Origin: an uncultured bacterium | GTDB taxonomy: Bacteria; Cyanobacteriota; Vampirovibrionia; Gastranaerophilales; Gastranaerophilaceae | Length of the DNA stretch: 64,000 bases | Assembly (NCBI GenBank): GCA_949292185.1 | Contig: CASEYP010000019.1 | Location: forward strand, 62,001-126,000 | Direction of reading: 5' to 3' | The notes under the pieces: generated by a model | Seen by the model: only the letters and a program-made list of their open reading frames with translations | Database searches by the model: none | What the model was told of the DNA's origin: nothing | Position numbers and translations under genes: made by a program | Shown here: positions 38,763 through 62,551 of the stretch, in pieces | Position numbering within the stretch: the first letter of the stretch is position 1 | How the letters are laid out: the number at the start of each line of letters is the position of its first letter

Positions 38763-38783
38763 GCATGTTTGACATGTTTTTTT
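38763..38783 (+). terminator. Weak terminator after the glycine-rich gene
   Basis: GCATG and CATGT enclose a TTTGA loop and are followed by seven T residues. The stem is short, but the T run is good and it stands directly before the riboswitch-like leader. Confidence 0.45.
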
Positions 38784-38784
38784 G

Positions 38785-38947
38785 CTTAAATTAATATCGA
38801 TTTAAGAGGAAATGAAGTGAATATCTTCAACTGCTGCCGCAGCCGTAAAAGTCGGAACACTCAAAGAAAAGCTATAATTCACGTGCAGTTTGGATATAGC
38901 AATAATTTTCTTTTGAAGTGTCCTCTATCATATTAGAGGATTTTTTA
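38785..38947 (+). promoter_or_regulatory. Cobalamin-riboswitch-like leader with RBS-containing hairpin
   Basis: The core matches what I remember of the cobalamin riboswitch: hairpin CTTAAAT/ATTTAAG, then AGAGGAAA, a TGAAG-TGAATAT-CTTCA stem-loop (38813-38829), and ACTGCTGCCGCAGCCGTAA (38830-38848). AGTCGGAACACTC follows. Downstream, TCCTCTA (38921-38927) pairs with TAGAGGA (38934-38940), followed by six T; the right arm is also the ribosome binding site of the gene at 38948. GGAACACT (38854-38861) can instead pair with AGTGTCC (38917-38923), which would break that hairpin. The region lacks the long P6 arm of the classical class, so the ligand call is less sure than the switch itself. Confidence 0.55.
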
Positions 38948-39655
38948 ATGTCATTAGGTGCAACATCGGTTCATACACACAGTTCAAAAATAGGAACTTG
39001 CCCGCACGGAATGCCCTTAGGAGCGTGTCCGATATGTAACGGCATGGCGGGGGGAAATTCTACCACAAAACGTGATGTTCCAAGAAACGTTGGCGAGATG
39101 ACATATAACCAATGCGCAGCAATAGGTGCAATGTTACGAGCGCAAAAACATGCCAGACAACAAGCACAAGCAGCTCAACAAAGTCATTTACAAGCTCTCG
39201 CAAATTTCCAAAAAAATATTGCCTCAACTCACCAAAGAATAATGGAATTTGCCGCAATGATATCCAATACCATGCCTGCTGTTATTGCAAAACCTATAAA
39301 TTTTGTTCTGAATAACATTGTTGGAAAAGTTCTGAATATAATCCAAAATGTTCCAACAGTTATAACAAATGTAATTCAAACAGTTACACAAAAATTTGCA
39401 GAAATTTCAGACAAATTAACTGCAATATATGGCGAACTTAAAGCTGCAATCAGCGAAAAACTCTCTAAATTTACAACAGACTTAAAAAAGAAATTAAAAT
39501 CAATGTTCTTTATATTTGGAACAGATGAAACCGATGATGATGATAAAAAAATAGATGAAGCAAAAAAGACTTTTGAGTTAAAAACCTTTATTCACAAACT
39601 CTACAAAAAACTCAAAAACGAAGATGAAAAGGATATAGAAAAGGATGAACGTTAA
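38948..39655 (+). CDS. Lineage-specific protein with Cys-His motif, under riboswitch-like leader
   Basis: The 235-residue protein opens MSLGATSVHTHSSK and then has a compact metal-site candidate, CPHGMPLGACPICNG (about residues 18-32). A helical, Gln/Ala-rich region (about 60-110), a hydrophobic amphipathic stretch with repeated V-I-N-x-V elements (about 115-160) and a charged C-terminus follow. I chose the ATG at 38948 because TAGAGGA is its binding site; a GTG at 38918 would sit inside the regulatory hairpin. It overlaps the next gene by 11 bases. The family is not recognised. Control by cobalamin would hint at corrinoid or metal handling, which is inference. Confidence 0.7.
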   Translation: MSLGATSVHTHSSKIGTCPHGMPLGACPICNGMAGGNSTTKRDVPRNVGEMTYNQCAAIGAMLRAQKHARQQAQAAQQSHLQALANFQKNIASTHQRIMEFAAMISNTMPAVIAKPINFVLNNIVGKVLNIIQNVPTVITNVIQTVTQKFAEISDKLTAIYGELKAAISEKLSKFTTDLKKKLKSMFFIFGTDETDDDDKKIDEAKKTFELKTFIHKLYKKLKNEDEKDIEKDER

Positions 39656-61870: not shown

Positions 61871-62551
61871 ATGAAAAAAGGTTTTACTTTATCTGAAGTT
61901 CTAATAACATTAGGAATTATAGGAACAATTGCTGCATTAACAATTCCAATTGTAGTTGCAAATTATAAAAATAAGTTATATGCAACACAAATGAAAAAAA
62001 CATATGGACAAATAATTGAAGCTGCTCAAACAATTATGAATGATGAGCATACTAATAATTTTTACACAACATCTGCTGGTATTCCACAAGATGACACCAC
62101 TGAAAATTGTAAAACAGGTGCTTGTTATTTCTTAAGAAACTATTTTAAAACAATAAATGAAAATTGCGCCACAGGAGATCATAAATGCGTTGGTGATTCC
62201 TACAAAACATTAAAAGGCGGTACTACTTATCCACCAGCAACATTTTGTGTTCAAACAACCAACGGAGCAACTATCTGCGCAGGACATAACTCAACTAACC
62301 AAGTAACAAGTATAACTGTTGATATTAATGGAAAAGACGGACCAAATATAGCTGGTAGAGATGTTTTCTCAATGGATATGAAAACAGACGGTTCACTTTC
62401 TGATTATGGCAGTGGATCTAACGATCCTATTATTGCAGGTGCAGACGCTGATTTATGTGGAGCAGCTGATGGCAATGTTTCTATTTTGAATGAAGCTGCA
62501 AGAGGTTGTTTGACAAAACTTATTGAATCCGGTTGGGTTATGGATTATTAA
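61871..62551 (+). CDS. Type IV pilin-like protein 3
   Basis: The 226-residue protein starts MKKG followed by FTLSEVLITLGIIGTIAAL, a canonical prepilin leader with Glu at +5. Residues 1-60 and the motif VDINGKDGPNIAGRDVFSMD are nearly the same as in pilin 2, with fewer cysteines. The ends ESGWVMDY and ESGWKMVY of pilins 3 and 2 also match. It lies ten bases after pilin 2. No assembly ATPase or prepilin peptidase is in the window. Confidence 0.9.
   Translation: MKKGFTLSEVLITLGIIGTIAALTIPIVVANYKNKLYATQMKKTYGQIIEAAQTIMNDEHTNNFYTTSAGIPQDDTTENCKTGACYFLRNYFKTINENCATGDHKCVGDSYKTLKGGTTYPPATFCVQTTNGATICAGHNSTNQVTSITVDINGKDGPNIAGRDVFSMDMKTDGSLSDYGSGSNDPIIAGADADLCGAADGNVSILNEAARGCLTKLIESGWVMDY

Follow-up and report, generated by a model that had tools for sequence, protein, structure and literature searches.

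The window analyzed here, a stretch of 64,000 nucleotides at positions 62001 to 126000 of contig C19, comes from the 1.89-Mb genome (G000) of a Gastranaerophilales gut bacterium, the closest named relatives of which are MAGs of Candidatus Gastranaerophilales (Melainabacteria) recovered from animal guts, rumens, and faeces. A promoter and a structured leader stand before an operon of three genes, CPH235, MEM502, and HEAT172 (Table 1). The locus was compared within a set of 59 genomes (G000 and 58 relatives), in which 36 are of the same genus and one, G058, is from another order.

Table 1. Positions of the leader elements and operon genes in the window
Feature	Position	Strand	Basis or remark
Sigma-70-type promoter	38769..38797	+	-35 TTGACA 38769-38774, 17-nt spacer, -10 TAATAT 38792-38797
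AdoCbl-II aptamer core	38804..38867	+	RF01689 score; alignment of 30 relatives
P3 GAG/CUC	38806-38808/38860-38862	+	
P4	38813-38829	+	
P5	38831-38842	+	
L5 loop UGCC(G), 5' half of kissing loop	38835..38839	+	pairs with 38882-38887
P6	38843-38855	+	
GGAACACU, aptamer 3' strand and antiterminator 5' half	38854..38861	+	pairs with 38917-38923
J6/3	38856-38859	+	
P13 hairpin with L13 loop	38871..38900	+	sequence, folding, covariation; kissing sequence CGUGCA 38882-38887
AGUGUCC, antiterminator 3' half	38917..38923	+	overlaps terminator left arm; covariation, energies
Intrinsic terminator/Shine-Dalgarno sequestor hairpin, GUCCUCUA-UCAUAU-UAGAGGAU and U run	38920..38946	+	
Shine-Dalgarno AGAGGA	38935-38940	+	inside terminator right arm; ATG at 38948
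CPH235, 235 aa	38948..39655	+	N-terminal CPHGMPLGACPICNGMAGG motif; C18, H20, C27, C30 invariant
MEM502, 502 aa	39645..41153	+	membrane protein; first 11 nt shared with the end of CPH235
HEAT172, 172 aa	41166..41684	+	predicted soluble; C-terminal half conserved

CPH235 is marked by the invariant motif CPHGxxxGxCPxC. Residues C18, P19, H20, G21, G25, C27, P28, C30, G32, G35, and G36 stay invariant against sequences with merely 17 to 21% overall identity to CPH235, and the Cys/His motif is therefore probably the working part of the protein. The CPHG motif was absent from other families in the DNA stretches fetched for comparison, which did not include the whole genome. Beyond the motif, amphipathic helices are predicted, no signal peptide was seen, and the structure model is of low confidence (pLDDT 55). 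MEM502 combines two clear hydrophobic segments (residues 79-102 and 254-281) with two long helices (residues 143-219 and 399-474), and it is internally duplicated (hhalign 97.6%, E = 2.6e-12); 34 residues are invariant among 17 diverse members, and the C terminus, EIKNGPPFVYS, is conserved. The mean pLDDT of its model is 66, and the fold relatives suggested by Foldseek were rejected (E of 0.28 or more), and the best VIA Z score, 7.6, is of the size usually seen between helical proteins that are not related. HEAT172 was found in genomes of f1, f5, f6, and f7 and is missing from family f3, so that the core unit is CPH235 plus MEM502.

No convincing family could be found for any of the three proteins in sequence searches of Pfam, NCBIfam, PHROGs, PADLOC, and PDB. 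Matches to tape-measure proteins, apolipoproteins, and ZorA were weak, low-complexity, or coiled-coil and were not taken as homology. An earlier reading of the locus, made from sequence alone and referred to here as the sequence-only reading, had described the three-gene operon as unrecognized, and this held in all five libraries; its “HEAT-like” label for the third protein was an impression, and HEAT172 has no match to HEAT/ARM in Pfam or PDB.

The promoter agrees with the consensus at 10 of 12 positions, and the start site inferred from its position, at about 38804, is the first base of the aptamer core. A promoter-like match is found in 72 of 75 leaders of relatives, and in nearly all of these 72 the -10 element ends 6 to 10 nt ahead of the AAGAGG core. 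An Rfam covariance-model search gave an AdoCbl-II (RF01689) match on the plus strand at 38794-38870. Its score of 39.0 bits exceeds the gathering score of 36.5, and its E value is 9.5e-6 when the whole window is searched and 4.4e-8 for a stretch of 301 bases. The leader missed the RF00174 cut-off, with 26.4 bits against 31.5. The P3-P6 core is kept in relatives, with 13 invariant columns in the 30-sequence alignment. The leader resembles AdoCbl-II RNAs in its above-threshold score, its P3-P6 core, its L5-L13 kissing loop, and the typical B12-regulon partners of its class. It differs in its target operon, which contains no known B12 gene, and in its 5' end: given the promoter and the inferred start, the RNA here begins at P3, and what the Rfam model takes as its outer, closing helix (model positions 1-6/76-81) is promoter DNA. 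We have little doubt that the leader is an AdoCbl-II cobalamin riboswitch linked to the operon, an assignment made without ligand-binding or expression data, and the RNA is in all probability one more member of an already known riboswitch class.

The two halves of the kissing loop covary (UGCC/CGUGCA, UGGC/CGCACA, and AGCC/CGUGCU, with GUCC/CGAGAC in nrdD leaders); pairing was 72 of 92, compared to 64.0 +/- 3.1 in shuffled data, and 106 of 10,000 shuffles reached the observed count. Covariation of the antiterminator is stronger, at 214 of 260 pairs compared to 204.8 +/- 1.9, a count that no shuffle in 10,000 reached. In relatives, the aptamer variants CACU, UGCU, and CGCU pair with AGUG, AGCA, and UGCG, respectively, preceding UCCUCU. 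These shuffles leave relatedness in, and the significance is an upper limit. The terminator hairpin has a folding energy of -10.4 kcal/mol (z = -4.5; equaled by none of 200 shuffles) and is the sole terminator-like site in the region, where 0.1 would be expected. Two leaders, L046 (G025) and L144 (G027), carry inserts that replace or interrupt the P13 region, with tandem repeats in G027; in G025, L5 reads UACC and the insert offers GGUA, and it is conceivable that the kissing loop has been rebuilt from the insert.

Most of what the sequence-only reading claimed for the leader was upheld. It had placed a cobalamin-type riboswitch at 38785-38950, which stands with its class now given as AdoCbl-II and not RF00174, and the sequence elements it listed were all found at or close to where it put them. 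Its pairing of GGAACACT with AGTGTCC, proposed to exclude the hairpin, held and is the pairing that covaries beyond all 10,000 shuffles. The TCCTCTA/TAGAGGA hairpin with a T run, the right arm of which it took as the ribosome binding site, also held, with the correction that the hairpin serves two roles, as intrinsic terminator and as Shine-Dalgarno sequestor. The lack of a covariance-model hit, or of covariation of the paired arms in relatives, had been named as a refuting outcome; neither occurred. The left end at 38785 failed, because that end and positions 1-10 of the Rfam model are promoter and not RNA, and the L13 kissing loop at 38882-38887 had been overlooked. The same leader, which it had suggested seeking before orthologs of the gene at 38948, is present in essentially every relative.

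An AdoCbl-II match was found in 55 of the 59 genomes and the operon in 51. Rfam places the switch directly upstream of the operon in all 36 same-genus genomes and in 10 of the 15 operon-bearing genomes of other genera (G039, G041, G045, G046, G047, G049, G052, G054, G055, and G057). The family's own model, R1, adds a switch upstream of the operon in G037, G040, G043, and G056 (L123, L124, L125, and L127), bringing the other-genus total to 14 of 15, with G053 as the sole exception. Among the named contigs, which come partly from the same genomes, the switch lies upstream of the operon in 79 of 80, and the exception, L242, is a contig with only 171 nt upstream of MEM502. R1 scores are 77 to 97 bits in 74 of these 80 contigs and 62 to 97 for most, the lowest being 59. 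Conservation at the locus is limited to the three operon genes (79 to 80 of 80 loci), and the best conserved separate neighbor is present in 34 of 80. The pairing of switch and operon can be regarded with high confidence as an order-wide rule.

The RNA from 38804 was folded stepwise. Until the right terminator arm has been transcribed, the ligand-free RNA favors the antiterminator state (-26.7 versus -22.2 kcal/mol); thereafter, the state combining aptamer and terminator is the more stable (-35.7 versus -30.9 kcal/mol). In the proposed mechanism, the GGAACACU strand would, in the absence of ligand, pair with AGUGUCC once this is made, blocking the terminator/Shine-Dalgarno hairpin and leaving the operon expressed. 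With ligand bound, P3 and the L5-L13 kissing loop would hold that strand in the aptamer and the hairpin would form, ending transcription about 2 nt ahead of the start codon and burying the Shine-Dalgarno sequence. Plentiful coenzyme B12 would thus turn the operon off, and CPH235, MEM502, and HEAT172 would be made in B12 shortage. On these energies, a ligand that stabilized the aptamer early would bring about termination and a buried Shine-Dalgarno sequence, as in an OFF switch; we consider this sign probable, inferred as it is from folding energies and regulon logic and not measured. In corrinoid riboswitches, the kissing loop is already known to be the element that depends on ligand (PMC10653944). 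The repressing metE switch of Priestia megaterium (PMC10653944) likewise is an OFF switch that combines an L5-L13 kissing loop with competition between terminator and antiterminator, but in the present leader the antiterminator is formed by the aptamer 3' strand and not by P13, and the terminator additionally buries the Shine-Dalgarno sequence.

The second AdoCbl-II switch of the genome (38.5 bits) precedes nrdD-nrdG, and G000 also encodes the AdoCbl-dependent class II reductase NrdJ (TIGR02504, 742 bits compared to 400), so B12 plausibly represses the B12-independent enzyme. Elsewhere in the order, AdoCbl-II switches precede a TonB receptor with a BtuC-like FecCD permease and an ABC ATPase behind it (G041, G042, G044, G046, and G051), metE (G036 and G042), an OprB porin with cbiM (G050, with CbiN adjoining cbiM by sequence), and cobT (G038). 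With nrdDG, BtuB/BtuC/D-type genes, metE, cbiMN, and cobT as partners, the operon falls within a conventional B12 regulon. No other switch target was seen throughout the 36 same-genus genomes. The genus members mostly have a class I/II-type ribonucleotide reductase, the AdoCbl-dependent kind being shown in G000. Six members are without a detected NrdJ-type reductase; no nrdD switch was found in these, and all six have the operon's switch, so the regulation of the operon is not tied to ribonucleotide reductase.

Several other switches deserve mention. The OprB-family porins directly behind AdoCbl-II switches at L106:683-2026 (G050) and L112:2567-3985 (G038) share 39% identity, and in G050 cbiM and a CbiN-like gene come next; an outer-membrane porin for cobalt or corrinoids is a possibility. 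Twin divergent AdoCbl-II switches, for nrdD-nrdG and for the operon, share a single intergenic region at L205 3961-4084, L210 2771-2901, and L228 2623-2749 (-), and the nrdD aptamers there have a long P6-loop insert. In G058, of another order of the class, a switch (L109, G058:C12:30133-30203) precedes a 962-residue ribonucleotide reductase large subunit (PF02867, with an ATP-cone), and a further reductase is encoded elsewhere in that genome. At L098:177-1592 (G038), a switch stands before a CbpB-type (TIGR04163) peptide-modifying radical SAM enzyme.

Domain searches of the 36 same-genus genomes found no FecCD permease (BtuC), no TonB plug domain (Plug), and no CbiQ/EcfT (0 of 36 for each), the stand-alone BtuM being outside their scope. 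All gathering-level TonB plug matches within the order are receptors behind AdoCbl-II switches (G041:C4, G042:C62, G044:C181, G046:C3, and G051:C33), adjoining BtuC-like permeases; G058 has one further weak match. By genus, BtuC occurs in 1 of 11 with the operon compared to 4 of 6 without it (p = 0.03), and by genome, in 2 of 51 compared to 4 of 8 (p = 0.002), neither value being corrected for kinship. The operon and BtuC therefore tend toward mutual exclusion, with statistics that relatedness inflates. The operon and a BtuB/C/D-like set occur together in G041 and G046, where the operon is thus not simply a BtuBCD replacement. The first Melainabacteria genome paper lists B2, B3, B5, B7, B9, and K as the vitamins made (PMC3787301), and the absence of B12 from that list fits scavenging. 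In the literature searched, neither a cobalamin riboswitch nor this operon has been connected with Melainabacteria or Gastranaerophilales. Weak matches in the genus to the B12-binding domain (PF02310) were followed, and none proved to be MetH; NCBIfam shows two of them to be radical SAM proteins of the TIGR03960-like kind, and a third looks by sequence to be a MiaB/MtaB-type enzyme. PduO-type adenosyltransferase was found in none of the 59 genomes (CobA/BtuR lay outside the search), although G000 encodes NrdJ and PF02867 reductases occur widely.

The simplest reading of the operon is a new corrinoid acquisition system, because the genus is without BtuC, TonB receptors, and EcfT, because the operon is its sole universal switch target, and because of the exclusion of BtuC. 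We hold this reading tentatively, with a probability of about 0.4, since uptake is inferred and there are no uptake data. The operon would then serve corrinoid acquisition in bacteria from which BtuBCDF was lost or always absent. MEM502 would form the membrane part, CPH235 would be a membrane-peripheral partner binding metal or corrinoid through its Cys/His motif, and HEAT172 would be an accessory. In a bolder form, which we would not yet bet on, the three proteins represent a B12 acquisition system of a type not known before, with no relation to BtuBCDF or ECF transporters; that it serves most of Gastranaerophilales under repression by the AdoCbl-II riboswitch is a no less provisional extension. 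Against uptake, no operon protein resembles any transporter or corrinoid-binding protein, and none matches a FecCD-type permease or a TonB-dependent receptor. The argument from importer loss covers only BtuC, TonB receptors, EcfT, and PduO; BtuM, CobA/BtuR, QueG, and de novo B12 synthesis were outside the search. Better supported is the claim that this B12-regulated system has not been described before, within the protein libraries and literature searched. The sequence-only claim that corrinoid level controls an operon of non-B12 genes is supported by the switch and its regulon, without ligand-binding data, and the further suggestion of an undescribed corrinoid or metal handling system remains an inference, for which the regulon context favors corrinoid over metal.

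The strongest rival holds that the operon responds to B12 starvation by some means other than uptake, replacing or supporting a B12-enzyme process much as MetE and NrdDG do. This remains possible: two other switch targets in the order (nrdDG and metE) are B12-independent isozymes, and the operon is divergent from a switched nrdD in L205, L210, and L228. However, the proteins look structural and membrane-associated, show no catalytic motif apart from the Cys/His knot, and match no enzyme family; the operon retains its switch in genomes without NrdJ; and it tends to be missing where BtuC is present, which would be unexpected for a bypass. Less probable still is a role in intracellular or inner-membrane handling of corrinoid or cobalt (storage, chaperoning, adenosylation, or cobalt supply), with an unidentified importer elsewhere. 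The invariant CxH...CxxC quartet of CPH235 would suit a metal site, for which there are no binding data, the PduO enzyme is absent throughout the set, and cobalt genes (cbiM with adjoining CbiN) are AdoCbl-II targets in G050. Against this, a 502-residue duplicated membrane protein and a HEAT-like protein are unusual partners for a metal transporter, and no link to cobalt genes was seen within the genus, CobA/BtuR again being outside the search.

Two further objections concern the RNA itself. The riboswitch might be real but activating, with the operon made at high B12, and activating corrinoid riboswitches do exist, such as the A. halodurans cobT switch (PMC10653944). We regard this as highly improbable, since the published activating switch uses P13 as its antiterminator (PMC10653944), whereas here P13 and the terminator are compatible, and since the present antiterminator is built from bases of the aptamer, an arrangement shared with models of repressing switches. 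The view that the leader has no function and only looks like an aptamer, by chance or as a decayed remnant, can draw on a window score merely 2.5 bits over the Rfam cut-off, but it is all but ruled out by conservation: the switch is kept with the operon in many genera, and its helices covary.

If acquisition is nonetheless the correct reading, the operon would parallel BtuBCDF in being a membrane-protein operon under a cobalamin riboswitch, each tending to occur where the other is missing, but it is without a TonB receptor, a FecCD permease, an ABC ATPase, or a binding protein. BtuG and BtuH of Bacteroides, accessory B12-binding proteins encoded with B12 uptake genes (PMC8941943, PMC10404256), are a precedent for novel B12 acquisition proteins; they are surface proteins beside BtuB, whereas CPH235 has no visible signal sequence and the genus has no TonB receptor.

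Cobalamin is a contested nutrient in the gut, and Gastranaerophilales are common gut bacteria. Their route of B12 import is unexplained, as the genus carries AdoCbl riboswitches yet has no BtuC, TonB receptor, or ECF transporter in 36 genomes. The one switched operon common to all 36 reduces the question to a short, testable list of three protein families. If they do serve uptake, they would be a new class of B12 transporter, and if they have another role, a new member of the B12-starvation regulon.
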